From Crystallibacter permensis (GTDB taxonomy: Bacteria; Actinomycetota; Actinomycetes; Actinomycetales; Micrococcaceae), in contig NZ_JAODLR010000008.1 in NCBI RefSeq assembly GCF_025960875.1, forward strand, positions 1 to 64,000: a DNA stretch of 64,000 nt, written 5' to 3'. Each line of letters starts with the position of its first letter. Positions within the stretch are counted from its first letter, which is position 1. Made by a program: the position numbers and the translations under genes. Below are positions 10,028 to 62,401 of this stretch, in pieces. Below the pieces are notes generated by a model, which saw nothing but the letters and a program-made list of their open reading frames with translations, did no database searches and had not been told where the DNA came from.

Positions 10028-11269
10028 TCAGTCCGCCGTCTGGTCCCAGCCATAGTCGGGGTAGTCGAAGAAGTCGCCGCCGTCGAGCGAATCGACTTGG
10101 CCGGTGGCCATTGAATCAACCAGCGACTCCAGTCCGGTCTGGACGGTCTGGACAAGCATGCCCTTCATCTTTTGGCCGAAGTCGTCGGACTGGCCCCGCA
10201 CCTCGAAAAGCACGGTCGCCGAGCCGTTCAGCGCAAACGCTGAGCGGCCCTGCCCCGCATACTCCCGCTCCTCTGGATGGAAATAACGTCCGACGGCGGC
10301 AAGCGGGGATTGCGAGCCGTAGCTGTCCTTAATCCCATCGGCCACTGCCAGCGCATACCGGCGGGACTTGTCCTGGTCCAGTAACGGCCAGTCCTCCTGA
10401 TACGCAGCGCCGTCGTTGACACCCAGCGGCGGGTAGTCCAGGGCGACGGAAATGTGCTTGCCGTCCTGTTCGCCTCCCGTCTGCTGGTCGCACGGTCCCA
10501 TATGGTGCAGATCGACGACGGCGTCCACCTCGCCGAATTCTTCCTGCAGGTCCACGTAAACATCCCTGATGGTCCGGGACTCCGGCGCGAGGAAGAATCC
10601 TGCATCCTCCTGCAGGCCCGGTAGATCTCCGGGCTGAGGCACGTAGTCCAGGTTTGCGTTGAAATCGCGGTTCAAGTCGAACCCGGGCAGGTCGATGCCG
10701 CCGTTGCTCAATCGGTGGTACCAAGCCGGCTGGGATCCTTCGAGTTGCGGATGCAGACTTTCGACGTCGTCCCAGGACATGACATTGGTGCGGCGGTTGA
10801 GTTCGCCGCCGTCGGGATTCACCATAGGCATGGCGACCAACGTGACGCCTTCGAGCGCTTGCCGGGTTTCCTCATCGTTACTGGAGGCCAGCTTCTGGAG
10901 GATCCCCAGGAGGGCCTCGGTGCCGGTCCGTTCATTGCCGTGGATGGCGCTTTGGACGAGCAGCACGCGGTCACCCGTTCCGACCCGGGCCGTGTAGAGG
11001 TCACGGCCGAGCGCAGATTGGCCCACCACTTCGACTTCTACACGGCCGCTGCTGTTCTCTTCAATGCGCTCGAGCCGTGGACCGAGCTCCGCATAACTGG
11101 TCCAGCCACTGAACTGAGGATCATCGGAAGTCTTGCAGATACCTGCCCCTGGCGCGTTGGATTCCCCTGGGGCGGCTCCGGCGGGGACAGCGGTAACCAT
11201 CGTGCACAGCATCGTTGCTGCACCAATGGCGCCGAGTAATCTGCGGGGACTTCTGGCGAAATTGCTCAC
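10028..11269 (-). CDS. Secreted M14-family zinc carboxypeptidase
   Basis: A 413-residue protein. A Sec signal peptide occupies about residues 1-33: basic ARSPRR, a hydrophobic core, and an ATAVPAGAA-like cleavage region. The M14 zinc site is visible as HGNE (His110, Glu113) and the later histidine in DLHHM (255-256). The catalytic glutamate is likely in TVLFEVRG. DLNRDF (199-204) supplies the conserved substrate-binding Asn/Arg. It would release C-terminal residues from external peptides. The GTG at 11269 is chosen because AGGAGAAACC precedes it and the signal peptide starts there. Confidence 0.85.
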   Translation of the reverse strand: MSNFARSPRRLLGAIGAATMLCTMVTAVPAGAAPGESNAPGAGICKTSDDPQFSGWTSYAELGPRLERIEENSSGRVEVEVVGQSALGRDLYTARVGTGDRVLLVQSAIHGNERTGTEALLGILQKLASSNDEETRQALEGVTLVAMPMVNPDGGELNRRTNVMSWDDVESLHPQLEGSQPAWYHRLSNGGIDLPGFDLNRDFNANLDYVPQPGDLPGLQEDAGFFLAPESRTIRDVYVDLQEEFGEVDAVVDLHHMGPCDQQTGGEQDGKHISVALDYPPLGVNDGAAYQEDWPLLDQDKSRRYALAVADGIKDSYGSQSPLAAVGRYFHPEEREYAGQGRSAFALNGSATVLFEVRGQSDDFGQKMKGMLVQTVQTGLESLVDSMATGQVDSLDGGDFFDYPDYGWDQTAD

Positions 11270-30108: not shown

Positions 30109-30115
30109 GTGCACC

Positions 30116-30151
30116 GCAACCCTCCGCCGTCGTTAGCCAGCGGAGGGTTGC
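30116..30151. terminator. Bidirectional terminator hairpin
   Basis: A perfect 12-bp stem GCAACCCTCCGC (30116-30127) / GCGGAGGGTTGC (30140-30151) lies between two convergent genes. The dispersed CCGCCGTCGTT motif (30124-30134) forms the loop side. A short TTGCG follows on the plus strand. Confidence 0.75.
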
Positions 30152-47379: not shown

Positions 47380-48258
47380 TCAGCCCAACACACCGCGTGT
47401 GCCGCGGGCCAGCAGCACCAGCTTGTCCGGGTTGCGGACAACGTAGACGCCGGTGACCTGTCCGCCGTGGACTTCCACCATGGCCGCCACATCCAGCCGA
47501 CCGCCGCTGAACACCAGCAGGCCGGGCATGTTGTTGAGGGTGGAAAACTCCACCCGCATGTCGGGCAGCGGGCGGGAGTGGACACCCACGAGGAAGCGGG
47601 CAATCTTCTCCGGGCCGTGCACGGGCCTGCGTGCAGTGGAGACCTTGCCGCCGCCGTCGGCGAGCAGAACGGCGCCCGGGGCCAGGACATCCATCAGGGA
47701 CTGCAGGTCGCCGCCGAGGGTTGCCGCCATAAACCGGTCCGCCACCTCGCGCTGCTGCCGCGTGCCAACTTCGAAACGTGGTTGCCGGGCGCTTACATGC
47801 TCTTTTGCCCTGTGCGCCAGCTGGCGGACTGCCGCTTGGGACTTACCGGTAACCTCGGCGATCTCGGTGTAGGGGAAGTCGAAGACCTCGCGCAGCACAA
47901 AGACGGCCCGCTCGTCCGGCGTCAGGGACTCGAGCACCACCAGCATAGCCACGGAGAGCGCCTCGCCCAGCACCGCATCTTCGGCCACATCCGGCCCGGT
48001 CAGGATCGGCTCGGGCAGCCACGGACCCACGTATTCTTCCCGACGGCGCTGCGAGGACCTCAGCGCATTCAGCGCGGTGCGCGTGGCGATCTTGGCGAGG
48101 TAGGCGCGGGGATTGCCCACGCCGTCGTCGTTCACCTCGGCCCATTTCAGGTAGCTGTCCTGCACCACATCCTCCGCGTCCGCGGCGGCGCCGGTGATCT
48201 CGTAGGCAATGGCGAAGAGCAGGGAGCGGTGCTGCTCGAAGACCTCCGGCGATCCCAT
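47380..48258 (-). CDS. ECF41-family RNA polymerase sigma factor (SigJ-like)
   Basis: A 292-residue extracytoplasmic-function sigma factor. Region 2 is at about 5-70, region 4 at about 105-158, and a SnoaL-like C-terminal extension at about 170-292. Three ECF41 signatures are readable: WLPEP (80-84) in the linker, DGGGK (201-205), and NPDKL (277-281). In this group the extension replaces an anti-sigma factor and tunes activity directly. It starts at ATG 48258, immediately after the stop of the upstream oxidoreductase, so the two genes form one transcription unit with an ECF41-type promoter. Confidence 0.92.
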   Translation of the reverse strand: MGSPEVFEQHRSLLFAIAYEITGAAADAEDVVQDSYLKWAEVNDDGVGNPRAYLAKIATRTALNALRSSQRRREEYVGPWLPEPILTGPDVAEDAVLGEALSVAMLVVLESLTPDERAVFVLREVFDFPYTEIAEVTGKSQAAVRQLAHRAKEHVSARQPRFEVGTRQQREVADRFMAATLGGDLQSLMDVLAPGAVLLADGGGKVSTARRPVHGPEKIARFLVGVHSRPLPDMRVEFSTLNNMPGLLVFSGGRLDVAAMVEVHGGQVTGVYVVRNPDKLVLLARGTRGVLG

Positions 48259-49601: not shown

Positions 49602-50459
49602 ATGGCACCGCCCCGCACCCATCGCATGCAACACCAGCAGCTCATCGTGACGTTGTACGGGCTTTATGCTGAAGGTACCGGCGGTTCGCTGCGTGTCTCC
49701 ACCTTGATCTCTATGCTCGCCGCGCTGGGGATTGACCAACAGGCAGCCCGGTCTACGGTCTCCCGACTCAAGTCCAAGGGCATCCTGCTCAGCCAGAAAG
49801 AGGATGGCGTAGCTCGATATGCGCTGTCTAGGGACATCCTTGACATCTTTAACGCATACGACCAGCGGATCTTCGCGCCGGAGCGCTCCAAACCGGGCGA
49901 TCCCTGGGCGCTTGTGGTCTTTTCGGTTCCTGAGGCGGAACGCAACCGGCGCTATGAACTACGGGCTGAACTGACCAGTCTGGGATTCGGATTTGTCGCT
50001 GCGGGAGTAGCGATTGCGCCCAGTACGGGGCTGGAGCAGGCAGTGGAGCGGTTGGCGTCCCGAAAGCTGGATGGCTACGCCGAATACTTCTCCGGTGACT
50101 ACCTCAAGGGCGGAGAGATCCGGCAGCACGTTTCACAGTGGTGGGACCTGCAAACGCTGGATCAGGAGTATTCAGAGTTCATCGACCGTTATGAGGGTCT
50201 CGTCCAAGAATGGCAGCACCGTGCGAGTCTCGCGGCAGGGTTCTCTGTCGAGGACCGGCTGGATGCCTTCCACACCTACGTTCCCATGCTGACGATGTGG
50301 CGGAAGTTTCCGTACCAGGACCCGAATCTTCCCCTGGAGTACCTTCCCGAAGGTTGGAAAGCGCCGCGCGCCAAGAAGGCGTTCCTGACACTGCACGGAA
50401 TTCTTGAAGAACCGGCAGCGGCTTACGCCAAAGAGTTGGTCCGTACGCGAGGTGACTGA
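49602..50459 (+). CDS. PaaX-family transcriptional repressor, copy 1
   Basis: A 285-residue regulator. An N-terminal PaaX winged helix (about 8-80: HQQLIVTLYGLYAEGTGGSLRVSTLISMLAALGIDQQAARSTVSRLKSKG) is followed by a PaaX central Cas2-like domain with WALVVFSVPEAERNRRYELRAELTSLGFG and a C-terminal domain ending with PNLPLEYLPEGWKAPRA. PaaX proteins repress aromatic acid genes and are released by aryl-CoA. It starts at ATG 49602. Its last 37 bp overlap the convergent hydrolase gene. CGATCG at 49573-49578, ahead of its start, could be an autoregulatory half-site. Confidence 0.92.
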   Translation: MAPPRTHRMQHQQLIVTLYGLYAEGTGGSLRVSTLISMLAALGIDQQAARSTVSRLKSKGILLSQKEDGVARYALSRDILDIFNAYDQRIFAPERSKPGDPWALVVFSVPEAERNRRYELRAELTSLGFGFVAAGVAIAPSTGLEQAVERLASRKLDGYAEYFSGDYLKGGEIRQHVSQWWDLQTLDQEYSEFIDRYEGLVQEWQHRASLAAGFSVEDRLDAFHTYVPMLTMWRKFPYQDPNLPLEYLPEGWKAPRAKKAFLTLHGILEEPAAAYAKELVRTRGD

Positions 50460-51196
50460 GAACCGATGTGCGCCATCCAGTTGCGTACGGACGACCATGA
50501 GCGGGTGGAAGGATCGATCGCGGCCAAATGGTCCAAGTCATGCGGCGATTCAAAATCGATGTGACTTCCGGCGGTGCGGGCACGCGCGACGAAGTCCATC
50601 GAGTGGTCTACAGGAACCCGCTGGTCCACCGCCCCATGCACTACCAGCGTCGGAGCAGATAGCGGGAGCCGGCTGAGCGGCGACGCCGATTCATAAACAG
50701 CCGGGTCCTCTTCCGGGGAAACGCCGAAGAATTCTGCAGCGGCACCTTCGCCCAACCGCTCGCGGTAAGTGCGGGCGACGTCTGTAACCGGGGCCAGAGC
50801 GACGACGGCGTCCAGCAGGTCCACCGCCAGCAACGCCAATTGTCCGCCTACAGAGTGGCCGACGCCGATTACCGGCCCCTCATGTTGTTCGCGCCAAGGC
50901 GTTGCGGCGACGGCAGCAACGGCAGCCCTGACGTCATCCCCAGTCGTCGGCCAGCCGCCGCCGTTGCCGTTACGGCGGTACTCGACATTGGCAACGGCCC
51001 AGCCGCTCTGCGTCAGGTCATGGGCCAGAGGGGCCATGAGGGAAGCGTCGAACGCAGCACGCCAATAGCCGCCGTGGATGAGGACGGCTACACCCTGGGG
51101 AGGCCCGCCACCGGCGGGATCCCAGCACTCAACGGTCTGTTGCGTGTGGGGACCATAGGCCAGCTGTAATGCAGGCGCGACAAGTCCTGATGACAT
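50423..51196 (-). CDS. Alpha/beta hydrolase, kynurenine formamidase-like
   Basis: A 257-residue serine hydrolase. The oxyanion-hole motif HGGYW matches HGGxW, typical of bacterial kynurenine formamidase-type arylformamidases. The nucleophile elbow is GHSVGG, and Asp and His candidates lie in HGAVDQRVPV and SPHDLDHL. It starts at ATG 51196, preceded by AAGGAAACTTCC. It is 80 bp downstream of the cupin gene and probably cotranscribed. A role in releasing anthranilate precursors would fit the neighbourhood, but other acyl substrates are possible. Confidence 0.78.
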   Translation of the reverse strand: MSSGLVAPALQLAYGPHTQQTVECWDPAGGGPPQGVAVLIHGGYWRAAFDASLMAPLAHDLTQSGWAVANVEYRRNGNGGGWPTTGDDVRAAVAAVAATPWREQHEGPVIGVGHSVGGQLALLAVDLLDAVVALAPVTDVARTYRERLGEGAAAEFFGVSPEEDPAVYESASPLSRLPLSAPTLVVHGAVDQRVPVDHSMDFVARARTAGSHIDFESPHDLDHLAAIDPSTRSWSSVRNWMAHIGSQSPRVRTNSLA

Positions 51197-51276
51197 GGAA
51201 GTTTCCTTATCGTAGGGCTGGCGCCGGGAGAACGAGACTCCCTGCGCCAGCACACTGTCAGCGATTCGTCCGGCTA

Positions 51277-51762
51277 TCAGGCGCCAGGAACTGAACCCGG
51301 CGGAAGGAAGTTCACGTCATGGAGGGCGGAACGACGGACTACTTCTTCCGGATCCGTCAGATCATGCAACTGGTCGAAGAGCTCGGACAGCTTTCCGGCC
51401 GGACTGACCCAGAATAGCGACTTGCCCGGAGTTTCGCCCTTGTTGTAGTAGGCATGCGGCAGTCCCATCGGCATGCGAACGGTGTCGCCGGGACCAGCCG
51501 TGGTCCACTCTCCGTCGAGGTACAGCGTGTAGACGCCTTCCATGATGAAAATGTGCTCATCCTGCGTGGGATGGACATGCGGGGGAACTCCAGTGCCCGA
51601 GGGGTCGAGAGACAGCCAAGCAAAGCTTGATGAGCTTTCGACCTTGGCGAGGTAGGTGTGGCCGAGCACGTTCCACGTCTTATTTCCCATGGCCTCGCTG
51701 GCCAGCGTGATGCCCTTGGGCAGATCACCGAGAATAATTTCCTGGTCTTGCTGCAGTTCCAT
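51277..51762 (-). CDS. Cupin-domain protein
   Basis: A 161-residue single-cupin protein. Metal-binding motif 1 reads PPHVHPTQDEHIFIMEGVYTLYLDG (His, His, Glu), and motif 2 PGDTVRMPMGLPHAYYN (His). Single cupins of this type can be dioxygenases, isomerases or sensors; none can be chosen. The start is ATG 51762, with GGA upstream; ATG 51777 lacks a ribosome site. It is divergent from the MBL/MFS operon and shares its regulatory region. Confidence 0.8.
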   Translation of the reverse strand: MELQQDQEIILGDLPKGITLASEAMGNKTWNVLGHTYLAKVESSSSFAWLSLDPSGTGVPPHVHPTQDEHIFIMEGVYTLYLDGEWTTAGPGDTVRMPMGLPHAYYNKGETPGKSLFWVSPAGKLSELFDQLHDLTDPEEVVRRSALHDVNFLPPGSVPGA

Positions 51763-51830
51763 AACTGGTCCTTTCATCGAATATGAGGTGCCGTCAGCAT
51801 GGCAGACGAAAAATCAATATGCAATAGGTA

Positions 51831-51859
51831 TTGCGATCGCAAAAAACGCTACATATGAT
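51831..51859 (+). promoter_or_regulatory. Shared catabolic promoter/operator, site 1 (CGATCG-N12-CATATG)
   Basis: TTGCGATCGCAA (51831-51842) is a perfect 12-bp palindrome with CGATCG at 51834-51839, and CATATG starts exactly 18 bp later at 51852. TTGCGA (51831-51836), 17 nt and TATGAT (51854-51859) make a good -35/-10 pair for the MBL-MFS operon, so a repressor on the palindrome would block the -35. Confidence 0.65.
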
Positions 51860-51967
51860 TTGAGTCACGCTCTTGTCGGCGAGTCCGACGTCAAAGCATC
51901 CGCCAAGCCACAGCATTTCTTCGACCAGCTGTGGCGCCGCCCGCCATCGAGGAAACGAGGGGCAAAT

Positions 51968-53023
51968 ATGAGCAAATCAGTACAAGGAATGACCGTCCAC
52001 ACTTTGGGAACCGGAGGCGGTCCCATTGTCTCGGGCAGTCGCGCCGGCACCAGCACTGTCGTCAAGGTAGACGACGCGGCCTACGTCATCGACTGTGGCA
52101 TGGGCAGCATACGCAATTATCGCTCCAGTTGTGCGTGGCCGGACCTGAGGGGGATTTTCCTCACACATCACCATTCAGACCATATCTACGACCTGGGTTC
52201 GTTCCTGGTGACGGGGTGGCAGGTGCCGGGCGAGTCGTTCAGCCGCCCAATCGAAGTCTTTGGTCCCGGACGTCCGTCGCGGGTTCCTGCCTTGGATGCT
52301 GAGCACGCGGTTCAGATTGACGCTCGGGTTGCTGGGCGGGCAATGACCGCAACAACCGAGGTGGTTGATGCCTTGTTGGATAAGGTGTTTGCTTCCGACA
52401 TCTGCATTCGGATGGCGGACGAAGGGCGCGAGGAACCTCACAACTGGGTCATTGCGCACGATATCGAGATCCCGGCGGCCGCCAATGCGGATCCGGTAGA
52501 GGCGCGGCATCCGCAGATGGAGCCGTTCGAGGTGTACCGGGACGAACTGGTGACCGTGACGGCAATCCTCGTGGACCACCGGCTGTGCTTTCCCGCCTTC
52601 GCCTTCAGGATCGATTCCGCTTACGGATCGGTGGTGGTGTCTGGCGATACGGCATACTCCGAAAACTGCATCCGGCTGGCGCGCGGCGCGGACCTTCTGC
52701 TGCATGAAGTCATGGATCTGCAGGCGATCCTGGCCACGTTCCCGGATGGTCCCACGCGCGACGGGATCGAGATCCATCTGCGTGAATCGCATACGTCGTT
52801 TGATGAGGTTGGCAAGGTGGCCCAGGCTGCCGGCGTTGGGCAGCTGGTGCTGCATCATATTGTGCCGAATACGCCGGGTGCGGCAGATGTCCAGAAGATG
52901 CAGCAGGTGGCCAGCCTGGACTTTGACGGACCTGTCCAGGTGGCCGAAGATAATGACTGCTTTGTGGTTCCGGTCGTGCCTGAACACGAAACCCAACTGG
53001 AGAAAGCAGAGGCAACGGCATGA
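51968..53023 (+). CDS. MBL-fold metallohydrolase (cytosolic)
   Basis: A 351-residue metallo-beta-lactamase-fold enzyme. The metal motif HHHSDH (67-72) is HxHxDH, and VVSGDTAYSENC and LHHI carry further ligands. GTGGGPIVSGSRAGTS near the N-terminus resembles the lactonase/arylsulfatase-like subgroup. GAGGGG ahead of ATG 51968 is the start; in-frame sequence upstream of it is not coding. No signal peptide, unlike the Tat-exported relative at 8814. The stop overlaps the MFS start (ATGA). In this catabolic region a lactone, ester or thioester hydrolysis is likely. Confidence 0.85.
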   Translation: MSKSVQGMTVHTLGTGGGPIVSGSRAGTSTVVKVDDAAYVIDCGMGSIRNYRSSCAWPDLRGIFLTHHHSDHIYDLGSFLVTGWQVPGESFSRPIEVFGPGRPSRVPALDAEHAVQIDARVAGRAMTATTEVVDALLDKVFASDICIRMADEGREEPHNWVIAHDIEIPAAANADPVEARHPQMEPFEVYRDELVTVTAILVDHRLCFPAFAFRIDSAYGSVVVSGDTAYSENCIRLARGADLLLHEVMDLQAILATFPDGPTRDGIEIHLRESHTSFDEVGKVAQAAGVGQLVLHHIVPNTPGAADVQKMQQVASLDFDGPVQVAEDNDCFVVPVVPEHETQLEKAEATA

Positions 53024-54480
53024 CCACACAGAGCCAGATCCCGCCGCATACCCTTCGCGCCGCGGTCAAGTACGGAAAAATGAACCGTCGTGCCTGGCTG
53101 GTGACCGGTGCCCTAGTGGTCTTCCAGATCATCAACTTCGCCGACAAAGCCGTCATCGGGCTGGTGGCTGACCCGGCCATGCGCGATCTGGGACTCACCG
53201 CCGGTGAGTTCGGTTTCATCGGTAGTGCGTTTTTCTTCCTGTTCGCCGTCGCCGCCATCGCTGTCGGATTCCTTGCCGGGAAGGTTCCCACCCGGTGGAT
53301 CCTCCTGGTCATGGGCATTTCCTGGGCAGTACTGCAGTTTCCCATGCTGTTTGGCGGCGGCGCCGCGGTATTGCTGGTCACCCGCATTCTGCTCGGGGCC
53401 GCCGAGGGGCCGGCGACCCCGATCAGCCTGCAGCACGTACACGGCTGGTTCTCCGCCAAAGAGCGAGGCCTTCCCAGCAGTATGGTCGCCGTCGGCTCGA
53501 CGCTGGGGCCGATCGTCGCGGCGCCTGTCCTCGCCTGGATTATTGCCAACCCCGCTCTTGGGTGGCGCTGGGCATTTGGGTTCCTGGGCATAGTCGGACT
53601 CCTGTGGTCGCTGTGCTGGCTGTTCATCGGGCGCGAGGGGCCTTATAGCCACACCTCCCGTTCAACCCCGGAATCCGAAACGGGCGATTCGGTCGAAGAA
53701 ACACAGCAGGAAGAAGCCGGCACAACAGCCGGGCGGCCCCGCAACGGGGAAAGCATCGCAGACACGGCGGATCTGCTTAAGATCGTGCCGATCCGCCGTG
53801 TCCTTGGAACACGCATGTTCGTGGCTGCCGTCCTGGCCGGAGCCGGCTGCTTCTGGGCGCAAGGCTTCCTGACAACTTGGTCTCCGAAGTATCTGGCGTC
53901 GGTCGTCTCGCTGTCGCCCGAGATGATCGGTCTCGTCTCAACGTTCCCTTGGGTCTTTGGCGCAGTAGCGCTCCTGGTGGTCGGTTACGGATCGCGCTTC
54001 CTGATGCGGAAGGGTGTGACGGTTCGCTGGGCTCTCGGAGCGCTCTTCGGCGCCACTCTGCTGTGTTCCGGAGCGTGCTTCCTGCTGCTGCCACATCTTG
54101 GCGGTGTGGCTGCGGTTGTCGCCGTGACTGTCGGTGCCGGCCTTGCCATGACTTACCCGCTGGCCCCAACTGCGTTGGCCTTCTCCGTATGTTCAAAGCA
54201 GCGGGCAGCCGTCATGGCGACGCTGACGGGTTTTGCCTCCATGGGCGGAGTCGTGGCGCCGGCCATGGTGGGCATGCTCATGGACAATGCCGGCTACCTT
54301 CCGGCGGCCAAGGGGGTCGCGGATACAGCAGAGATGGCTGCCCGCCTGGCCGAGGGGATGAATTCGTCGTTCTGGATGATCGGCATCTACCTGGTGGTGG
54401 TCGGTGCCATCAGCATCCTGTTGCTGAACCCCGACCGTACTGCTGCACGCCTCCAGGAACGTTTTGCCTACAACGGCTAA
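53020..54480 (+). CDS. MFS transporter, aromatic-acid or organic-anion importer type
   Basis: A 486-residue inner-membrane protein with 12 predicted helices. It opens with a short cytosolic part, then WLVTGALVVFQIINFADKAVIGLVADPAMRDLGLTAGEFGFIGSAFF, as in ACS/AAHS importers. The central loop (about 210-255) is acidic and Gln/Glu/Thr-rich. It is translationally coupled to the MBL gene and lies behind operator site 1. Probably imports the substrate of this pathway. A hairpin terminator follows. Confidence 0.9.
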   Translation: MTTQSQIPPHTLRAAVKYGKMNRRAWLVTGALVVFQIINFADKAVIGLVADPAMRDLGLTAGEFGFIGSAFFFLFAVAAIAVGFLAGKVPTRWILLVMGISWAVLQFPMLFGGGAAVLLVTRILLGAAEGPATPISLQHVHGWFSAKERGLPSSMVAVGSTLGPIVAAPVLAWIIANPALGWRWAFGFLGIVGLLWSLCWLFIGREGPYSHTSRSTPESETGDSVEETQQEEAGTTAGRPRNGESIADTADLLKIVPIRRVLGTRMFVAAVLAGAGCFWAQGFLTTWSPKYLASVVSLSPEMIGLVSTFPWVFGAVALLVVGYGSRFLMRKGVTVRWALGALFGATLLCSGACFLLLPHLGGVAAVVAVTVGAGLAMTYPLAPTALAFSVCSKQRAAVMATLTGFASMGGVVAPAMVGMLMDNAGYLPAAKGVADTAEMAARLAEGMNSSFWMIGIYLVVVGAISILLLNPDRTAARLQERFAYNG

Positions 54481-54495
54481 TGGTCATTGGATTGT

Positions 54496-54530
54496 CGCTG
54501 CCCATCGGCTCCGTTGTCTGATGGGCAGCG
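54496..54530 (+). terminator. Terminator after the MFS gene
   Basis: A perfect 11-bp stem CGCTGCCCATC (54496-54506) / GATGGGCAGCG (54520-54530) with a 13-nt loop, 16 bp past the MFS stop and ahead of the next promoter. Confidence 0.7.
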
Positions 54531-54572
54531 ATGCCTTGTCCGGAGTCTTTTCCGATCCCGCTATTTCTCGAT

Positions 54573-54607
54573 TAAATTGTACGATCGTAAAATTTACACC
54601 ATATGAT
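54573..54607 (+). promoter_or_regulatory. Shared catabolic promoter/operator, site 2 (CGATCG-N12-CATATG)
   Basis: TACGATCGTA (54580-54589) is the core of a 24-bp palindrome (54573-54596) with arms TAAATT and AATTTA and one mismatched pair. CGATCG starts at 54582 and CATATG at 54600, 18 bp apart. TATGAT (54602-54607) is a good -10. The extended symmetry makes this the clearest of the three sites. Confidence 0.7.
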
Positions 54608-54645
54608 GGATGGAAAGAGAGAAACGCCGGTCAGGAGAGGGAGCC

Positions 54646-55143
54646 GTGGTTCACGAAGAAGTCACGCCAATAGTGAGCGCGGGTATCGACCGAACAGTGG
54701 AGTGGGTCGACACGGATGCCGCTGGGCACCAGCATAACTCTGCAGTGATGCGCTGGGTTGAGGCCGCCGAGGCGGAATTGTTTCGTCAACTCGCTCTTCC
54801 GGACTACTTTCCCAGTGCGCCACGCGTGCAGCAGATTATTAACTACCGGTCCAAACTCTGGTTCGGCCAGCGCATTACTGCGACTTTAGCTTTGGAAGAG
54901 ATTGGATGTACATCGATGACGTTCGTATTCGAGGTGCACGGCCATCCTCACGAGAAGTCCGACGGCGGTCTTGCGGCTTATGGAACGTTCACCACCGTTT
55001 TCGTCCCTCAGGGGGCGGAGCGGGCGCAGCCGTGGCCGGAACACATGCGTGCCGCCTTGTCGGACTCCGACCGTACCCAGTTGATCGCACCAACTAATTC
55101 GTCGCCTCAGAGGCGCCTAGTGCTTCAGAAAGAGACCAAATGA
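54646..55143 (+). CDS. Hotdog-fold acyl-CoA thioesterase (4HBT type)
   Basis: A 165-residue thioesterase. The catalytic region DTDAAGHQHNSAVMRWVEAAEAELF matches the 4-hydroxybenzoyl-CoA thioesterase pattern (Asp near a GHxxN). ATG 54610 would lie at or before the transcript start predicted from the -10 at 54602, so GTG 54646 with GGAGAGGGAG is chosen. The stop overlaps the ThDP gene (ATGA). It probably releases an aromatic acid or intermediates from CoA. Confidence 0.85.
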   Translation: MVHEEVTPIVSAGIDRTVEWVDTDAAGHQHNSAVMRWVEAAEAELFRQLALPDYFPSAPRVQQIINYRSKLWFGQRITATLALEEIGCTSMTFVFEVHGHPHEKSDGGLAAYGTFTTVFVPQGAERAQPWPEHMRAALSDSDRTQLIAPTNSSPQRRLVLQKETK

Positions 55144-56879
55144 CTGTCCATACGCAGGAAAATTTTGGTGGCACGGTAACGCGCAGTATGCCGGGACGTC
55201 TCGAGGGGCAGGTGGGGGTGCGCCAGCCGGAAAATGTGGCCGAACTAGTCGGTTCCACACTGGCCCGGCTCGGTGTCGGGCATGTCTTCGGGGTGGTGGG
55301 CAGTGGCAATTTCGTCGTCACCAATGCGTTGCGCCGTTCAGGAGTTCCCTTCACCGCGGCGAGGCATGAAGGTGGTGCCGCGACTATGGCCGATGCGTAT
55401 GGACGGATGTCAGGCAAGGTCGGGATTGTTTCCACACACCAGGGGTGCGGATTGACCAACGCGGTGACAGGTATCGGGGAAGCGGCCAAAAGCCGCACTC
55501 CGATGATCGTGCTTACAGCCGACACCGCGGCTCCGGCGATCCGGTCAAATTTCAACATCGATCAGGATGCTCTGGCACGTAGCGTGGGCGCCGTGCCTGA
55601 GCGGATACACTCGCCGCAGAGCGCGGTCGCAGACACGGTGCGGGCATACCGTACGGCCGTGAATGAGCGGCGCACTGTAGTTCTGTCGCTGCCTACCGAT
55701 ATCCAAGCCATTCCAATAGATGCAACTGCGGGCGGGCAAGTATCCCCGCTCGATCCGCCGCAACCGGTCCGGCCGAATGCGACGGCCGTTTCAAGGCTGG
55801 CCGAACTGATCCGCGGCGCGCGGAGACCGGTCTTCGTGGCCGGTCGAGGCGGCCGGGGCGCAGCCCAGGAGATTGCAGCACTGGCTGAGATTTCCGGTGC
55901 GCTCGTGGCGACCTCGGCCGTCGCTCACGGCCTGTTCAAGGGCGATCCGTTCAACCTTGGCATCTCCGGTGGCTTCTCCTCGCCGTTTACGGCCGAAACC
56001 ATTTCAGGTGCTGACCTGATTGTCGGCTGGGGGTGCGCCTTAAACATGTGGACAATGCGGCACGGCTCGTTGATTTCAGCGGACACGAAGGTTGTCCAGG
56101 TGGATGTGGAAGACAGTGCCCTTGGAGCTAATCGCCCTATCGATCTGGGCGTGCTCGGCGACTGCGCAGAAACAGCGGCAGCAGTGCAGGCAGAGTTGCA
56201 GGCAGCGGGATACAGCGCTCCCGGTCAACGTAACCACGAGATGGCTCAACGAATTGCCGCTGAAGCGCGTTGGACCTCTGTCGTGACCGAAGACCTGTCC
56301 GCCCCGGAGGCCATCGACCCGCGGGTCCTGAGTCGGGAGCTGGACAAGCTGCTGCCCGCAGAACGCATCGTAGCCATCGATTCCGGCAATTTCATGGGAT
56401 ACCCCAGCACCTACCTGGACGTCCCCGACGAATTCGGTTTTTGCTTTACCCAGGCGTTCCAATCCATTGGCCTGGGGCTGTACACGGCTATCGGGGCTGC
56501 CGCCGCGAGGCCGGATCGGCTGCCGGTGCTCGGGACCGGAGACGGCGGATTCCTGATGTCCATTGCCGAATTGGAAACGGCAGTCAGGGAACACATTCCA
56601 CTCTTGATCATTGTTTACAATGACTCCGCTTACGGGGCTGAAGTCCACCACTTTGATGCCAGCGACGAGGATCTCGACGTGGTGCGGTTCCCCTTGACAG
56701 ACATTGCGTCGATCGCCCGTGGCTATGGCGCCGAAGGAATCGTAGTGGAGGGTACCGACGATCTGGAGGCTGTCTCCGGCTGGCTGGCCGGACGGCGGGA
56801 CACTCCGCTGGTCATCGACGCCCGCATTGCTTCCGACGGCGGTGCGTGGTGGCTTGCCGAAGCGTTTAAAGGCCACTGA
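55140..56879 (+). CDS. Thiamine diphosphate-dependent enzyme (acetolactate synthase/benzoylformate decarboxylase superfamily)
   Basis: A 579-residue ThDP enzyme. The N-terminal pyrimidine-binding domain carries the conserved Glu77 (ARHEGGAATMADAYGR), a central domain follows, and the C-terminal pyrophosphate domain has GDG (467-469) and Asn494 (YND) in the GDGxN metal motif. It resembles acetolactate synthase-like and 2-keto acid decarboxylases; the substrate is not clear. It is coupled to the thioesterase by a 4-bp overlap, behind operator site 2. It could decarboxylate or ligate a keto acid derived from the ring. Confidence 0.87.
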   Translation: MTVHTQENFGGTVTRSMPGRLEGQVGVRQPENVAELVGSTLARLGVGHVFGVVGSGNFVVTNALRRSGVPFTAARHEGGAATMADAYGRMSGKVGIVSTHQGCGLTNAVTGIGEAAKSRTPMIVLTADTAAPAIRSNFNIDQDALARSVGAVPERIHSPQSAVADTVRAYRTAVNERRTVVLSLPTDIQAIPIDATAGGQVSPLDPPQPVRPNATAVSRLAELIRGARRPVFVAGRGGRGAAQEIAALAEISGALVATSAVAHGLFKGDPFNLGISGGFSSPFTAETISGADLIVGWGCALNMWTMRHGSLISADTKVVQVDVEDSALGANRPIDLGVLGDCAETAAAVQAELQAAGYSAPGQRNHEMAQRIAAEARWTSVVTEDLSAPEAIDPRVLSRELDKLLPAERIVAIDSGNFMGYPSTYLDVPDEFGFCFTQAFQSIGLGLYTAIGAAAARPDRLPVLGTGDGGFLMSIAELETAVREHIPLLIIVYNDSAYGAEVHHFDASDEDLDVVRFPLTDIASIARGYGAEGIVVEGTDDLEAVSGWLAGRRDTPLVIDARIASDGGAWWLAEAFKGH

Positions 56880-56915
56880 CACTTAGCTGTCGTCAACCCT
56901 TTAAGATAGGCCCAG

Positions 56916-57827
56916 ATGCAGTCAACCAGGCAAGAAACGAGAACACAGGACATGATTGCCGTTCCGGCGCCACCGCTCCGGCACCAGCAGCTTATCCTCA
57001 CCATTTACGGCCTCTACGGGAGGGGCGGTGGAGCCGCTCTGCCCATCTCGGTGCTGATCGACATGCTCGGGGATTTAGGTCATGACGCTCCAGGGGTGCG
57101 TTCGGCCGTGTCGCGCCTAAAGGCCAAGGGTGTGTTGAACAGCGTCAAAGACGGCGGCATGGCTAAGTACGAGTTGTCACCACGCTCGCTGGAAATGGTG
57201 AATGAGGGCGACGAACGCATTTTCGAGCCCTACAGGGGGACGCCCGACGGCGACTGGGTACTCGCGATCTTCTCCGTCCCTGAATCGATGCGCGATCGCC
57301 GGCACCAGCTGCGCACGGAGCTGACCCGGCTGGGCTTTGGCGCGATGGCTCCTGGCGTGTGGATTGCCCCCTCGGGTGTATGCGAAGGCGCCAAGCGTCG
57401 GCTGGCCGCCCGGGACTTGGCCGAGTACGTGGAGTTCTTTACCGGGAACTATTCCGCGGAGGGAGATATGCGAAGCAAGGTAGCCAAATGGTGGGATCTG
57501 GAGGCTCTGGGCGTCCAGATTTCCGAGTTTATGGAGTACTACCGAAATTCGCTCGCGGACTGGACGAGATATGTGGGAGAGGATCCGGCAACGGCGCTGC
57601 CCAATTCCTCCGAAGAACTTCGCCGCGATGCCTTCCGGTACTACGTTCCCATGCTGACGTTGTGGCGCCGTCTCCCGTACCGGGACCCAGGCCTGCCGCT
57701 CGCATACCTGCCGGAGGGATGGCAAGGCCCGGAAGTCCGGAGGATTTTCTTCGGGGTGCACAGGTTGATCGCCCCCATGGCCGAGGCCTACGCAATGTCC
57801 CTCGTGAACAAAGCCGAGGCCACTTAG
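56916..57827 (+). CDS. PaaX-family transcriptional repressor, copy 2
   Basis: A 303-residue paralogue of the first PaaX. The winged-helix part HQQLILTIYGLYGRGGGAALPISVLIDMLGDLGHDAPGVRSAVSRLKAKGVL aligns directly, and the ends share DPGLPLAYLPEGWQGPEVR. A promoter-like TAAGAT at 56902 lies so close to ATG 56916 that a leaderless start is possible; ATG 56952 is an alternative. It may respond to a different aryl-CoA or the same one with its paralogue. A strong hairpin follows. Confidence 0.92.
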   Translation: MQSTRQETRTQDMIAVPAPPLRHQQLILTIYGLYGRGGGAALPISVLIDMLGDLGHDAPGVRSAVSRLKAKGVLNSVKDGGMAKYELSPRSLEMVNEGDERIFEPYRGTPDGDWVLAIFSVPESMRDRRHQLRTELTRLGFGAMAPGVWIAPSGVCEGAKRRLAARDLAEYVEFFTGNYSAEGDMRSKVAKWWDLEALGVQISEFMEYYRNSLADWTRYVGEDPATALPNSSEELRRDAFRYYVPMLTLWRRLPYRDPGLPLAYLPEGWQGPEVRRIFFGVHRLIAPMAEAYAMSLVNKAEAT

Positions 57828-57850
57828 GGGCCTCGCGAAGGCGGCCTTAA

Positions 57851-57894
57851 ACAGGTGTTGCCCGGCCGGTTTCAGCTGGCCGGGCAACACCTGT
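57851..57894. terminator. Bidirectional terminator, 17-bp stem
   Basis: Perfect 17-bp stem ACAGGTGTTGCCCGGCC (57851-57867) and its complement (57878-57894), loop GGTTTCAGCT, between convergent paaX copy 2 and the Rid gene. Confidence 0.8.
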
Positions 57895-57899
57895 ATGAG

Positions 57900-58316
57900 T
57901 CAGCGCTCTGGAATTACTGCGATTCCCTGGATCTCAATCAGCGCCTCTTTCTGCCACAAACGGCTGACCCCGATGCCGGCCATGGCCGGGTATTCCGTAC
58001 CAGCCATTTCGCGCCACAGCTTGCCGATTTCCCGGCCGTTGGCCATGTAGTCATCCACGTCTGTCAGGTAGATGGTCACGCTGACGAGGTCCTCAGGGCG
58101 CCCTCCTGCCTCGGTCAGAGTAGCCAGAACGTTGGAGAACGCCTGGCGGAATTGCTCAAGAATGCCACCAGGGACGATTTTCATGTCCTTGTCCAGGGCG
58201 GTCTGGCCGCCGAGGAAAACTGTATTGCCGGCCAGAATCCCATGGGCGTAGCCGGAAGGCTTGGGCAGCGATTCCGGGTTGATGGTGCGGTTACCGACTG
58301 CGGTCTGGTTGCTCAT
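57900..58316 (-). CDS. RidA/YjgF-family protein without the archetypal catalytic arginine
   Basis: A 138-residue Rid-superfamily protein. The family body is present: AGNTVFLGGQTALDKD, EQFRQAFSNVLATLTEAGGRPEDLVSVTIYLTDVDDY, and ALIEIQGIAVIPER. True RidA enamine/imine deaminases carry a conserved Arg in a PAR(S/T) segment; here it reads PAMAG (Met112), so the canonical salt bridge to substrate is missing. It belongs to another Rid subgroup with a modified role. AAGGAGGCACAG precedes ATG 58316. It is divergent from the FAH operon with operator site 3 between. Confidence 0.85.
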   Translation of the reverse strand: MSNQTAVGNRTINPESLPKPSGYAHGILAGNTVFLGGQTALDKDMKIVPGGILEQFRQAFSNVLATLTEAGGRPEDLVSVTIYLTDVDDYMANGREIGKLWREMAGTEYPAMAGIGVSRLWQKEALIEIQGIAVIPER

Positions 58317-58382
58317 CTGTGCCTCCTTGGCATCGCGTTATCCGTCTCAAAGATTTTCAGAAAAACCTCTAGTGCAGATCCT

Positions 58383-58410
58383 TTCGATCGTGCTACGTTG
58401 AGCATATGTG
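58383..58410 (+). promoter_or_regulatory. Shared catabolic promoter/operator, site 3 (CGATCG-N12-CATATG)
   Basis: CGATCG at 58385-58390 and CATATG at 58403-58408, 18 bp apart as in the other two sites. TTTCGA (58383-58388), 16 nt and TATGTG (58405-58410) form a weaker promoter. It faces the five-gene FAH-to-monooxygenase operon and lies about 70 bp ahead of the Rid start on the other strand. Confidence 0.6.
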
Positions 58411-58456
58411 ACGGCCGTAAAAAAGTCGATACATCAGAATCAAAGGAGATCCAGAG

Positions 58457-59311
58457 ATGAAACTGGCCACGGTCCGCACCGGCCCAGCAACGACGACGGC
58501 AGCGATCCAGTTGCGTTCGGACGCTTATCTGCCGCTCCCTGCCGACGACGTTGGCGCCTTGCTTGGCGATCCGGGCTGGCGGGCGAAGGCTGAAGAGGCT
58601 CTGGCGGCGGCGACTGATTCCGCCGGTGTTACTTATGCAAGTGCTGACGTGGCGCCCCTGCTGCCGCAAGCCGGCAAGGTCATCTGCTGCGGCTTGAACT
58701 ACGGCGACCACATACAGGAAATGGGCCGGGAATTGCCGGAATACCCCACCCTCTTCGCTAAGTTTGCTGACACGCTTGCCGGTCCTGCCGATGAACTGGT
58801 GGTGGAAGGCAGCAGCCGGGTGGACTGGGAAGCGGAGCTTGCCGTGGTGGTCGGTGCAACTTTGACCCGGGCTAACGAGGCAGAAGCCGAAGCCGCCATC
58901 GCGGGTTACACAGTGGCCAATGATGTTTCCATGCGTGACTGGCAGAACCGCACGCTGCAGTGGTTCCAGGGCAAGGCCTTTGACCGGACCACACCGGTCG
59001 GGCCGGTCATGGTGACCCCCGACGAAGTCGACGGCGGCGGCTTCGAGGTCCGCGGCTACGTCAACGGTGAACTCGTTCAGCAGGGCCATACCCGGACCTT
59101 GGTGTTCGGTCCGGCACGCCTGCTTTCCTACATCTCCCAATTCACAACACTGCGCCCGGGAGACCTCGTGCTGACCGGGACCCCCGGGGGAGTGGGGATG
59201 GGGATGACCCCGCCACGCTTCCTCGCCGACGGCGACGTCATTACTACTGAGATCGACGGCATCGGACGCCTGGAGAACCGCGTTCTGATCCGCCAACCTG
59301 CATTCCACTAA
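58457..59311 (+). CDS. Fumarylacetoacetate hydrolase (FAH)-family protein
   Basis: A 284-residue hydrolase. The FAH core starts with GKVICCGLNYGDHIQEMG, then the metal site DWEAELAVVVG and NDVSMRDWQ, and the usual LLSYISQFTTLRPGDLVLTGTPGGVG. Members split C-C bonds of fumarylacetoacetate, fumarylpyruvate, acylpyruvates or oxaloacetate. It is the first gene of the operon with AAAGGAGATCC before ATG 58457. A ring-fission product or a late keto acid of the aryl-CoA route would be the substrate. Confidence 0.9.
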   Translation: MKLATVRTGPATTTAAIQLRSDAYLPLPADDVGALLGDPGWRAKAEEALAAATDSAGVTYASADVAPLLPQAGKVICCGLNYGDHIQEMGRELPEYPTLFAKFADTLAGPADELVVEGSSRVDWEAELAVVVGATLTRANEAEAEAAIAGYTVANDVSMRDWQNRTLQWFQGKAFDRTTPVGPVMVTPDEVDGGGFEVRGYVNGELVQQGHTRTLVFGPARLLSYISQFTTLRPGDLVLTGTPGGVGMGMTPPRFLADGDVITTEIDGIGRLENRVLIRQPAFH

Positions 59312-59323
59312 GAAGGAGAAGAC

Positions 59324-59806
59324 ATGACTGAGACAGCTACCGAGTACCGCCTCGAGGGCGATAACTCCATCTACGCCGGCAGCGACGGCAAGGTGGTACC
59401 CGTGGTAACCCGCGGTGGCAGCGAAGACACCAACACCGCCCAGTCAGGCGACTGCGTCCGTGTTTCCGGCGTCAGCATCCAGCACACCCCGGCCACCAAG
59501 ATCTGGTTCGGCCAGGTCTCCAACGTCCCCGGCTACCGATCCCTGCCGCATCATCATGCCGAAGCCGAGACCGGCGGCTACGTGCTCCGCGGCCGCGGCC
59601 GCATCTACTTCGGCGAGAACTACTCCGAGTTCATCGATATGAAGGCAGGCGACTGGGTCTTCGTGCCACCCTTCATGCCGCACGTGGAAGCGAACATGTC
59701 CGTCACCGAGGAGCTGGTTTGGCTGACAGCCCGCACGCCGGAAAACCTCGTGGTCAACCTGGATGATGTAGCCGACGAAACGCTGGAAGGATACCGCCGG
59801 GCATGA
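59324..59806 (+). CDS. Single-domain cupin in the aryl-CoA operon
   Basis: A 160-residue protein with cupin motif 1 PHHHAEAETGGYVLRGRGRIYFG (His, His, Glu) and motif 2 GDWVFVPPFMPHVEAN (His). Gentisate dioxygenases are bicupins of about 340-380 residues, so this is not one of them. It may be a small dioxygenase, isomerase or a binding subunit acting in the pathway. AAGGAGAAGAC precedes ATG 59324, and its stop overlaps the TesB start. Confidence 0.82.
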   Translation: MTETATEYRLEGDNSIYAGSDGKVVPVVTRGGSEDTNTAQSGDCVRVSGVSIQHTPATKIWFGQVSNVPGYRSLPHHHAEAETGGYVLRGRGRIYFGENYSEFIDMKAGDWVFVPPFMPHVEANMSVTEELVWLTARTPENLVVNLDDVADETLEGYRRA

Positions 59807-60699
59807 ACACGTTAACCGGATCCCTGACCGCCGAGACCTTCCTCCGCGCCATCGAGCTCGACGCCGTGGTGCCGCAGGTCTTCGACGAGGCCTACGAGGC
59901 CACCACCCAGTATGTGCCGTGGCCCAAGGCCTACGGCGGAGATATGGTGGCCCAGTCCGCGGCAGCGATGATGCGCTCGGTCGGCGCGGACCGCCAGCTG
60001 CATTCGATGCACAGCTACTTCATGCGACCCGTCGACATCGGCGCCGTAGTCCGCTACGAGGTGGAGAACCTGCGCGACGGCCGGGGCTATTCAACCCGCA
60101 GCGTCCGCGCTTACCAAGGCGGCAAGACCGTGTTCGCCGCTATGGGGTCGTTCCAGGTCCCTGAGGACGGACCGGACTTCCAAGCCGAAATGCCGGCAGC
60201 AGTGGAGCCCGAGTCGCTGCGCAGTGCAGCCGAGGTACTGGATGGCGTCGACGGCGACGCCGCCGCCTACTGGTCAGCTGGCCGCAGCTTCGACATGCGC
60301 CACGTACCGGGACCGGTGTACGTGCAGATCGAGGGCGAACAGACGCCGCAGCAAGCAGTGTGGGTCAAGGCCTTCGACCGCCTGCCCGACGGACCGGATG
60401 CGCAGAGCACTGCAAACCTGCACAGAGCCGCACTGGCCTATGTCTGCGACTACACGATCCTGGAACCGATCCTGCGCGCCAAGGGCCTGCACTGGTCCAC
60501 ACCCGGCCTGGCAACCGCCAGCTTGGACCACTCCATGTGGTTCCACCGCGAAGGGCGCGCCGATGAGTGGGTCCTCTACGCTCAGGAAGCCGTGACTGGC
60601 CAGCGCAACCGCGGTCTCGCAACCGGCCGGTTCTTCGACCGCTCGGGGCGTCTCCTGGCCACTGTTGCCCAGGAAGGCATGATCCGCGCCGGCAACTGA
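59803..60699 (+). CDS. TesB-type acyl-CoA thioesterase II
   Basis: A 298-residue double-hotdog thioesterase. The N-terminal half has YVPWPKAYGGDMVAQSAAAMMRSVGADRQLHSMHSYFMRP and the C-terminal half DYTILEPILRAKGLHW, TASLDHSMWFHRE, with the catalytic Asp and the GLATGRFFDRSGRLLATVAQEG tail typical of TesB. It is translationally coupled (ATGA) to the cupin. It is the second thioesterase of the regulon, besides the small hotdog enzyme, and could free CoA from aryl or ring-opened acyl-CoA. Confidence 0.9.
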   Translation: MNTLTGSLTAETFLRAIELDAVVPQVFDEAYEATTQYVPWPKAYGGDMVAQSAAAMMRSVGADRQLHSMHSYFMRPVDIGAVVRYEVENLRDGRGYSTRSVRAYQGGKTVFAAMGSFQVPEDGPDFQAEMPAAVEPESLRSAAEVLDGVDGDAAAYWSAGRSFDMRHVPGPVYVQIEGEQTPQQAVWVKAFDRLPDGPDAQSTANLHRAALAYVCDYTILEPILRAKGLHWSTPGLATASLDHSMWFHREGRADEWVLYAQEAVTGQRNRGLATGRFFDRSGRLLATVAQEGMIRAGN

Positions 60700-60745: not shown

Positions 60746-62401
60746 ATGGAACTATCACCATCGGCGCACGTGGACACCTTCACACGCGATAACCTGCCGC
60801 CGGCAGAGCAGTGGCCGGTACTTGAATTCACCTTGCCGGAACTTCAGTACCCGGAACGCCTCAATGCCGCGACGGTCCTTATCGACGACGCCGTCGAGGC
60901 CTTCGGCGCAGACCGGCCCGTATTGCACACCCCGGACGGGGAAACCTGGAGTTACGGCCAGTTGAAGCAGCACGCCAACCAAGTAGCGCAGGTTCTGACT
61001 GAGGACTTCGGTGTGGTGCCGGGCAACCGCGTCCTGCTGCGCGGCCCGAACAATCCGTGGCTGGTGGCTGCCTGGCTCGGCGTGCTCAAGGCCGGGGCCG
61101 TGGTTGTGACCACCATGCCGGTACTGCGTGCCAGCGAAGTTGCCAAGATCTGCGAACTTACCGCGCCTGTAGTGGCAATTTCGGACCACCGCTTCTCGGC
61201 GGATATGCAGGACGCCGTAGGGGCGGGCACCGCCGTCGTTACTTACGGCGCTAGCGACGATAGCGACCTTACCGTCCGTTGCGCCGCGAAGAACGGGACC
61301 TTCCAGGATGTGCCGACGGCGGCGGACGACGTGGCGTTGCTGGGGCCGACATCAGGCACCACGGGCACCCCGAAAATCACCATGCACTTCCATCGGGACA
61401 TCCTCGCCAACGCCGACACGTTCGCACGACACATCCTCAAACCCACGGCCGACGACGTCTTCGCCGGTTCGCCGCCGCTGGCCTTCACCTTCGGGCTGGG
61501 CGGGCTGGTAGTCTTCCCGCTGCGCTTCGGCGCCTCGGCCTTGCTGACCGAACGGGCCACACCGCTGGATTTGGCCCGGCAGTCCGCTGCCGCCGGTGCC
61601 ACCGTGCTCTTCACGGCGCCGACGGCGTACCGGGCCATCCTGAAAGAAGGCCGGGGTGACCTGCTCAAGAACCTGCGCGTCGCGGTCTCGGCCGGAGAAC
61701 ATCTGCCCAAGGAAACCTGGGAAGCGGTTCACGAGGCCACGGGACTGTCGCTGGTCAACGGCATCGGCGCCACGGAAATGCTCCACGTGTTCATTTCCGC
61801 CGTCGGAGACGACATACGTCCGGGAGCGACGGGCGTCGCCATCCCGGGGTTCCGCGCAACGATCTTCGACGAGGACGGCAACGAGGCCGCCCCGAACGAG
61901 CCCGGCCGCCTGGCCGTGATCGGCCCGACCGGCTGCCGCTACCTGAACGACGAGCGCCAGCTGAACTACGTCCACAACGGCTGGAACGTCACCGGCGACA
62001 CGTTCGTGCGCGATGAGGAAGGGTATTTCTACTACCAGGCGCGCTCCGACAACATGATCATCTCCTCTGGCTACAACATCGGCGCCCCCGAAGTCGAAGC
62101 CGCGATCGACCAGCACCCGGACGTGGTGGAGAACGCCGTAATAGGCCGGCCCGACCCGGAACGCGGCAGCGTGGTCTGCGCCTTCATCGTGCTGCGTGAA
62201 GGTGTCGCAGCTGACGCCGCCAAGCGCAAAGAAATCCAGGACTTCGTCAAGGCGACCATCGCTCCGTACAAGTATCCGCGGGACGTGCGGTTCGTGACCG
62301 AGCTGCCCCGCAATCCCAGCGGCAAGCTGCAGCACTTCAAATTGCGCGCTGCCGTCTCGGAAGAAACCACAGAATTAGCCGGCGCAGGCCAAGGCCGCTG
62401 A
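60746..62401 (+). CDS. Aryl-CoA ligase, 2-aminobenzoate/benzoate-CoA ligase type
   Basis: A 551-residue ANL-superfamily AMP-forming ligase. It starts with SAHVDTFTRDNLPPAEQWP, as in 2-aminobenzoate-CoA ligases. The ATP loop is TSGTTGTPK (202-210), A5 reads INGIGATEMLHVF-like NGIGATEMLHVF, then GDTFVRDEEGYFYYQARSDNMIISSGYNIG and the C-terminal Lys in RNPSGKLQHFKLR. It would activate anthranilate or a similar benzoate as the first step. AAAGGAACGCC precedes ATG 60746. It is 13 bp upstream of the fused monooxygenase. Confidence 0.88.
   Translation: MELSPSAHVDTFTRDNLPPAEQWPVLEFTLPELQYPERLNAATVLIDDAVEAFGADRPVLHTPDGETWSYGQLKQHANQVAQVLTEDFGVVPGNRVLLRGPNNPWLVAAWLGVLKAGAVVVTTMPVLRASEVAKICELTAPVVAISDHRFSADMQDAVGAGTAVVTYGASDDSDLTVRCAAKNGTFQDVPTAADDVALLGPTSGTTGTPKITMHFHRDILANADTFARHILKPTADDVFAGSPPLAFTFGLGGLVVFPLRFGASALLTERATPLDLARQSAAAGATVLFTAPTAYRAILKEGRGDLLKNLRVAVSAGEHLPKETWEAVHEATGLSLVNGIGATEMLHVFISAVGDDIRPGATGVAIPGFRATIFDEDGNEAAPNEPGRLAVIGPTGCRYLNDERQLNYVHNGWNVTGDTFVRDEEGYFYYQARSDNMIISSGYNIGAPEVEAAIDQHPDVVENAVIGRPDPERGSVVCAFIVLREGVAADAAKRKEIQDFVKATIAPYKYPRDVRFVTELPRNPSGKLQHFKLRAAVSEETTELAGAGQGR

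Follow-up and report, generated by a model that had tools for sequence, protein, structure and literature searches.

Predicted operators of a PaaX-type repressor in a putative anthranilate-CoA degradation cluster of Crystallibacter permensis

Gene content of the cluster

The stretch analysed, referred to below as the window, comprises 64,000 nucleotides of Crystallibacter permensis (assembly GCF_025960875.1, contig NZ_JAODLR010000008.1, positions 1-64,000, forward strand), and the whole genome of 4,947,726 bases in 66 contigs was scanned with it. From 49.6 kb to its end, the window carries a gene cluster with two genes for PaaX-family regulators, PaaX1 and PaaX2, and with three promoter regions (sites 1, 2 and 3) sharing the motif CGATCG-N12-CATATG, which an initial annotation had taken for the operator of an aryl-coenzyme A (aryl-CoA) regulon. 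The analysis presented here indicates that the three sites are very probably operators of a PaaX-type repressor governing an anthranilate-CoA degradation regulon, and that the motif as first defined is partly coincidental, the shadow of a 28-bp element. The genes are listed below with their Pfam or NCBIfam matches.

49602-50459, plus strand: PaaX1, PaaX-family regulator (PF07848, PF20803 and PF08223 above cut-off)
50423-51253, minus strand: alpha/beta hydrolase (PF20434, PF00326)
51277-51777, minus strand: cupin (cupA), divergent from the MBL gene (PF07883)
51968-53023, plus strand: metallo-beta-lactamase-fold protein, MBL (PF00753, PF12706)
53020-54480, plus strand: MFS transporter (PF07690)
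54646-55143, plus strand: 4HBT-type thioesterase (PF13279), with an assumed GTG start, read from the upstream AGGAGAGG
55140-56879, plus strand: thiamine diphosphate (ThDP)-dependent enzyme (PF02776, PF00205, PF02775)
56916-57827, plus strand: PaaX2, PaaX-family regulator (PF07848, PF20803 and PF08223 above cut-off)
57900-58316, minus strand: RidA-family protein, divergent from the FAH operon (PF01042)
58457-59311, plus strand: fumarylacetoacetate hydrolase-family protein, FAH (PF01557)
59324-59806, plus strand: cupin (cupB) (PF07883), 79-87% identical in eight relatives
59803-60699, plus strand: TesB-type acyl-CoA thioesterase (PF02551, PF13622)
60746-62401, plus strand: aryl-CoA ligase, probably an anthranilate-CoA ligase, 78% identical to the ligase of plasmid pAL1
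62409-64000, plus strand (62409-64805 on the contig, extending beyond the window end): 2-aminobenzoyl-CoA monooxygenase/reductase-like flavoprotein (NF006101 above cut-off), 83% identical to the pAL1 protein

Upstream of the cluster, positions 47380-48258 of the minus strand encode a factor of the sigma-70 family whose C-terminal end has a weak SnoaL-like match; a flavoprotein gene adjoins it.

Distribution of the first-noted motif

A pattern scan placed CGATCG at 51834, 54582 and 58385, followed each time by CATATG 18 bp after its first base, exactly as originally described. These three matches in the window compare with 0.02 expected, none of 100 shuffles reached three, and the full-genome scan returned the same three matches and none to a reversed control pattern; chance is thus a very poor explanation for three exact copies inside 6.6 kb. 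When up to two mismatches were allowed, the genome contained 144 matches against 84 for the reversed control, while exactly one mismatch gave seven matches; these include the minus-strand mirror image of site 1 (51816-51839). The palindromes described at site 1 (12 bp, perfect) and site 2 (24 bp, one mismatched pair) are correct, and the palindromic part of site 3 as first marked is CGATCG alone. The count of a single further CATATG was too low, the window holding six copies rather than four, with those at 10499 and 41111 overlooked. As for related genomes, the exact pattern proved confined to this cluster in the ten genomes of the genus (nine places in six genomes), but it was not conserved at site 3: six of the places are site 1, two are site 2, and one, in the window's own genome only, is site 3. 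The predicted operators and promoters are as follows.

51814-51842, minus strand: predicted mirror promoter of the divergent cupin gene (-35 TTGCGA at 51842-51837, 17 bp, -10 TATTGA at 51819-51814)
51828-51855, plus strand: predicted operator site 1 (core palindrome TTGCGATCGCAA at 51831-51842), between the cupin/alpha-beta hydrolase (minus) and MBL/MFS (plus) units
51831-51859, plus strand: predicted MBL promoter (-35 TTGCGA at 51831-51836, 17 bp, -10 TATGAT at 51854-51859)
54576-54603, plus strand: predicted operator site 2, upstream of the genes for the thioesterase, the ThDP-dependent enzyme and PaaX2
58385-58408, plus strand: site 3 as first marked, not the operator, holding a conserved -10-like TGCTACGTT at 58391-58399
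58406-58433, plus strand: predicted true position of operator site 3 (core TGACGGCCGTAA at 58409-58420), between RidA (minus) and the FAH operon (plus)

Conservation of the 28-bp element at site 3

Alignment of the divergent RidA/FAH region from 23 loci revealed an invariant TG.TA..TTGA followed by an element with the consensus ATGTGACGRCCGTAAAAAAGTCGACAYA. The expected conservation of the motif upstream of orthologous operons was not found: CGATCG occurs in the first-marked register of site 3 in 2 of 68 loci, and in one of the 23 aligned loci as judged by eye. The centre of the conserved element is instead the CGGCCG at 58412, 27 bp beyond the first-marked CGATCG; site 3 had been placed about 27 bases off, and the match to the motif there is a coincidence.

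A search of named actinobacterial records with the neighbouring cupin, limited to the best 80 of its 406 relatives, yielded 78 distinct loci. Almost all of these come from Micrococcaceae, several being the same places as loci in the matrix described below, and the 28-bp element stands at the start of the catabolic operon in 76 of them. FAH precedes the cupin in 73 of these loci, 68 of which carry the element 47-141 bp upstream of FAH; in eight further loci it lies between RidA and whichever gene leads (three with FAH internal and five without FAH there). Of the remaining two, L208 is truncated at a contig end and L215 has a score below zero, although TGACGGGCGTCA is still present there between RidA and the cupin. 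In 77 of the 78 loci, the operon is accompanied by a RidA-family gene on the opposite strand. In Nesterenkonia natronophila, FAH is separated from the operon, and an operator-like element of its own precedes it by 88 bp (L212:6204-6231, minus strand, score 7.7).

Sites 1 and 2

The core palindrome of site 1 would consist of two -35 boxes facing each other, one belonging to the predicted MBL promoter, whose sequence is mostly kept in orthologues, and the other to the mirror promoter, which is the minus-strand one-mismatch match to the motif and has a largely conserved ATGCAATA block. Among 13 site-1 loci, the exact motif is present in nine and a form with one or two mismatches in four. In a wider alignment of 19 rows, which represent 18 distinct loci because L191 and L052 coincide, the block around TATTGCGATCG is kept throughout, two genomes of another family included, with CGATCG in 17 rows and CATATG in 11. 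A search for MBL relatives in 396 genomes of the order found five with a match at E<=1e-90, two of them new. Two more blocks in the region 51755-51880 and its orthologues could be further protein sites: CAGCATGGCA, largely conserved, which precedes the mirror promoter within the presumed leader of the divergently transcribed cupin gene, and a GTCAC-like sequence after the MBL -10.

Site 2 has a counterpart upstream of the 4HBT gene in six of seven loci of the genus, the window included (by eye), and none in L044; further counterparts lie between PaaX and 4HBT in L177, L178 and L190. Genome G006 has two copies of the cluster (G006:C26, L042, and G006:C27, L053), each with its own site-2 and site-3 elements, and the second copy has no MBL-MFS unit within the 20-kb stretch examined. 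The role proposed for CATATG as a TATGAT-like -10 is tenable at sites 1 and 2, where it overlaps TATGAT, but not at site 3, where it lies downstream of the conserved TACGTT and falls at the presumed start point.

A common operator and its candidate binder

A 28-column matrix derived from the site-3 elements of 18 loci outside the genus was applied to both strands of a 78-kb portion of the window's contig (155,946 positions). It ranked site 3 first (58406, score 43.8), site 1 second (51828, 14.9) and site 2 third (54576, 9.8), with -2.4 for the next position, and these ranks with a matrix from other genera make it probable that the 28-bp operator is present in divergent form at sites 1 and 2. 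Among 300 Markov sequences of equal length, the best score was at least 14.9 in three and at least 9.8 in 17, and a second-best score of at least 9.8 was reached in none. The same matrix ranked site 1 between first and seventh within its own locus in all 19 rows. With profile R1, which was built from all three site classes and includes the three sites themselves, the genome gave these three hits alone at E<=10, the scoring having covered 150 of the 856 first-look candidates. In the ten genomes of the genus, R1 gave 19 hits, of which 18 fall inside the cluster and one is in G008 (E 0.77). The strongest dyad in all three site classes is centred on column 9.5 and has the approximate form TKRCG-NN-CGYMA, after which come an A/T tract and CGACAYA. 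The wide dyad TGTGACGAC-N9-GTCGACACA (centre 15) came second to the core palindrome in the site-3 sequences and outside the five best centres at sites 1 and 2, and is therefore retained only as a possible extra half-site.

The two PaaX proteins are the only Pfam regulators among the window genes from 49.6 kb to the monooxygenase, and the proposal that a PaaX-type repressor is the best candidate for binding is supported. In both, the N-terminal, central Cas2-like and C-terminal domains score above the gathering thresholds, and neither reaches the cut-off of the phenylacetate-operon PaaX equivalog TIGR02277 (138 and 135.8 bits against 264.55). PaaX2 shares 49% identity with PaaX1 and 45% and 44% with the pAL1 pair (45% with the pAL1 PaaX at 29264-30130), and its gene is probably transcribed from site 2 together with the genes before it. 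In a sample of 149 genomes from the family, a PaaX2 relative (E<=1e-40) was found in 34 and the element (E<=0.01) in 30, with both in 29 and the element only in one; the element is thus present in 29 of 34 genomes with this PaaX and in 1 of 115 others. In 25 of 30 places, the distance between the element and the end of a PaaX2-type gene is 494-696 bp. Autoregulation of PaaX1 was considered and set aside: no element was seen by eye in the approximately 220 bp upstream of paaX1 in the window and 12 relatives.

Several results weigh against a single operator bound by PaaX. In other loci, the scores of site 1 with the site-3 matrix often fall below zero, within the noise of random sequence. When the columns of the first-noted motif are removed, sites 1 and 2 rank 40th and 182nd of the 155,946 positions, still high, with their uniqueness gone. 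A matrix including this genus scores them at 11.1 and 5.4, and random sequence reached 9.7 (best) and 5.5 (second best) with it. In the genome, profile R2, which includes neither site-1 sequences nor this genus, detects site 3 alone at E<=10, with 150 of the 1277 first-look candidates scored; sites 1 and 2 escape it. The palindrome TGACGNNCGTMA fits site 3 only, sites 1 and 2 giving no fit within one mismatch, and taken alone it is no commoner in the window than chance. Finally, PaaX occurs without the element in five sampled genomes, and because both belong to one cluster their co-occurrence supports binding and does not prove it.

Some of the same data could be explained by two regulons, with PaaX1 alone acting on site 1 (the TTGCGATCGCAA form, for MBL/MFS and cupin/hydrolase) and PaaX2 alone on sites 2 and 3, the operators being alike only because the paralogues are. 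A PaaX1-type gene adjoins the site-1 unit in 13 of 13 mapped loci (the window and L041-L052), the core is kept as TTGCG at site 1 and is mostly TGACG at site 3, and the misses of R2 fall on the same side. However, Pseudarthrobacter sulfonivorans ALL (L163) has a single PaaX at E<=1e-15 and both site-1 and site-3 elements, which suggests that one PaaX can serve both; hybrid cores occur at site 1 of L146 and L163 (TTGCGATCGTCA) and at site 3 of L090 and L092 (TTGCGACCGCAA); and the stretch RS-x-V-SRLK, assumed to lie in the recognition helix, is common to PaaX1, PaaX2 and both pAL1 proteins. Two separate regulons are held to be rather unlikely.

Comparison with plasmid pAL1 and other known systems

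Plasmid pAL1 of Arthrobacter sp. Rue61a carries the genes RidA/FAH-cupin-TesB-ligase-monooxygenase in the order of the window, RidA being divergent in both, with a PaaX gene at either end. The element is present at the pAL1 RidA/FAH promoter as TGACGATCGTAA (site-3 matrix score 46.6), and the site 3 core TGACGGCCGTAA is the form also found there. Elsewhere on pAL1, TGACGNNCGTCA occurs upstream of the monooxygenase gene before meqE, of a xanthine-dehydrogenase-type gene and of the second paaX gene.

MeqR2 of pAL1, the subject of work by Niewerth et al. of 2013 in J Bacteriol, is reportedly a PaaX-type repressor that binds a TGACGNNCGTcA palindrome, also written TGACGNNCGTCA, and is released by anthraniloyl-CoA. 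Its sites are said to lie at -35 to -24 of two upper-pathway promoters, at +4 to +15 of the lower-pathway promoter and at +53 to +64 of meqR2. If +4 is the first T of the pAL1 palindrome, the start point in the window would be 58406, seven bases past the last base of TACGTT; by this analogy, site 1 would have the -35 geometry and site 3 that of a site just after the start point. The two systems share a PaaX-type regulator, the operon and the core palindrome at site 3 and, reportedly, also the placement at -35 or just after +1 and the effector anthraniloyl-CoA. They differ in the cores of site 1 (TTGCGATCGCAA) and site 2 (GTACGATCGTAA), which replace TGACGNNCGTCA and deviate from the TGACGNNCGTcA palindrome by more than one base, and in their further units, MBL-MFS/cupin-hydrolase in the window and quinaldine genes on pAL1. 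The palindrome reported for MeqR2 is the same kind of site, and the earlier remark that no operator of this form had been published is probably wrong; a literature search on PaaX operators and aryl-CoA repressors, with subscription journals mostly outside its coverage, pointed to none. Beyond the four sites reported for MeqR2, pAL1 has two more operator-like elements, L216:9714-9741 and L216:11743-11770 (both minus strand; scores 13.6 and 39.9), one between moaA and moaE and one upstream of a superoxide dismutase gene.

Escherichia coli PaaX is likewise an aryl-CoA-responsive repressor of its family acting on divergent catabolic promoters and its own, but it belongs to the phenylacetyl-CoA pathway and its operator is TGATTC(N27)GAATCA (PMC9493321). 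The inverted repeat TGATTC/GAATCA has no match in the window at spacings of 12-30.

According to a report on strain Rue61a, the product of ARUE_113p00220, by gene order the pAL1 counterpart of the window ligase, has anthranilate-CoA ligase activity and makes anthraniloyl-CoA; the strain grows on anthranilate and not on salicylate or gentisate, and two PaaX relatives take part in controlling quinaldine degradation (PMC3534580). On the basis of these data and of the 78% and 83% identities of the ligase and flavoprotein to pAL1, the cluster is read as one for anthranilate-CoA degradation, similar to that of Azoarcus evansii, where anthranilate is described as degraded via 2-aminobenzoyl-CoA monooxygenase/reductase (PMC3534580). 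A possible substrate of the RidA-family protein is the enamine 2-amino-5-oxocyclohexenecarboxyl-CoA, hydrolysis of which would agree with the cyclohexanedione-carboxyl-CoA that the same source proposes. NCBIfam names the monooxygenase salicylyl-CoA 5-hydroxylase, a designation that is probably generic and that would suit salicylyl-CoA or another aryl-CoA as inducer; against the ligase identity, the growth data of Rue61a and a RidA protein that would fit an enamine intermediate, such an inducer in place of anthraniloyl-CoA appears improbable.

Proposed regulation and its implications

The conserved blocks could in principle be promoter or 5'-leader elements only (sigma recognition, start site or leader RNA), with no repressor site. 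Conservation is expected of a promoter too, and at site 1 the boxes overlapped by CGATCG (-35) and CATATG (-10) are spaced by 17 bp, but the block at site 3 lies downstream of the -10-like TACGTT, the 28-bp element takes differing positions relative to the promoter, and R2 under strict filters (E<=0.01) places it once or twice per genome in 30 of 149 genomes and in none of the rest, unlike sigma sites; we regard this explanation as very improbable. That CGATCG-N12-CATATG is itself the operator is hardly credible despite its three exact, genome-unique copies, and it is rejected on conservation at site 3 (CGATCG in 2 of 68 and 1 of 23 loci, with the element 27 bp on conserved).

The preferred reading is that of operators for a PaaX-type repressor, which would be PaaX2 and/or its paralogue PaaX1, probably as a dimer. 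The repressor would occupy the 12-bp imperfect palindrome, extended by the A/T tract and the CGACAYA half-site. At sites 1 and 2 it would cover the -35 region and block polymerase binding; over the two face-to-face boxes of site 1, it is proposed to control both divergent units. At site 3 it would cover about +1 to +28 and block initiation, and through site 2 it would also control paaX2 itself. Anthranilate activated by the ligase would yield anthraniloyl-CoA, which would bind PaaX and free all three promoters.

The system would be a chromosomal counterpart of the MeqR2 system of plasmid pAL1, and the switch has apparently already been described in a related bacterium. The novelty lies in the extension to 28 bp, in how widely this form is conserved and in the MBL-MFS/cupin-hydrolase branch. 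Tentatively, and with less assurance than for the operators as such, we propose that this PaaX clade binds an asymmetric 28-bp composite operator (palindrome, A-tract and third half-site CGACAYA), and that, through the face-to-face -35 switch of site 1, the anthraniloyl-CoA regulon in Micrococcaceae and their relatives gains a hitherto undescribed branch that releases or transports anthranilate (MBL-fold protein, MFS carrier, cupin and alpha/beta hydrolase).

Of the initial annotation, three promoters with one kind of element and an aryl-CoA pathway regulon are both supported, and its reading of a PaaX operator of an aryl-CoA regulon is probably right; a motif caught by eye can get the regulon right and one site wrong. 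What was reportedly an observation on a single plasmid is extended to a widely conserved regulon defined by its sequence. For a repressor expected to sense anthraniloyl-CoA, the analysis supplies exact targets of 28 bp, and it ties the MBL-MFS/cupin-hydrolase unit, which is conserved and unstudied, to anthranilate metabolism.

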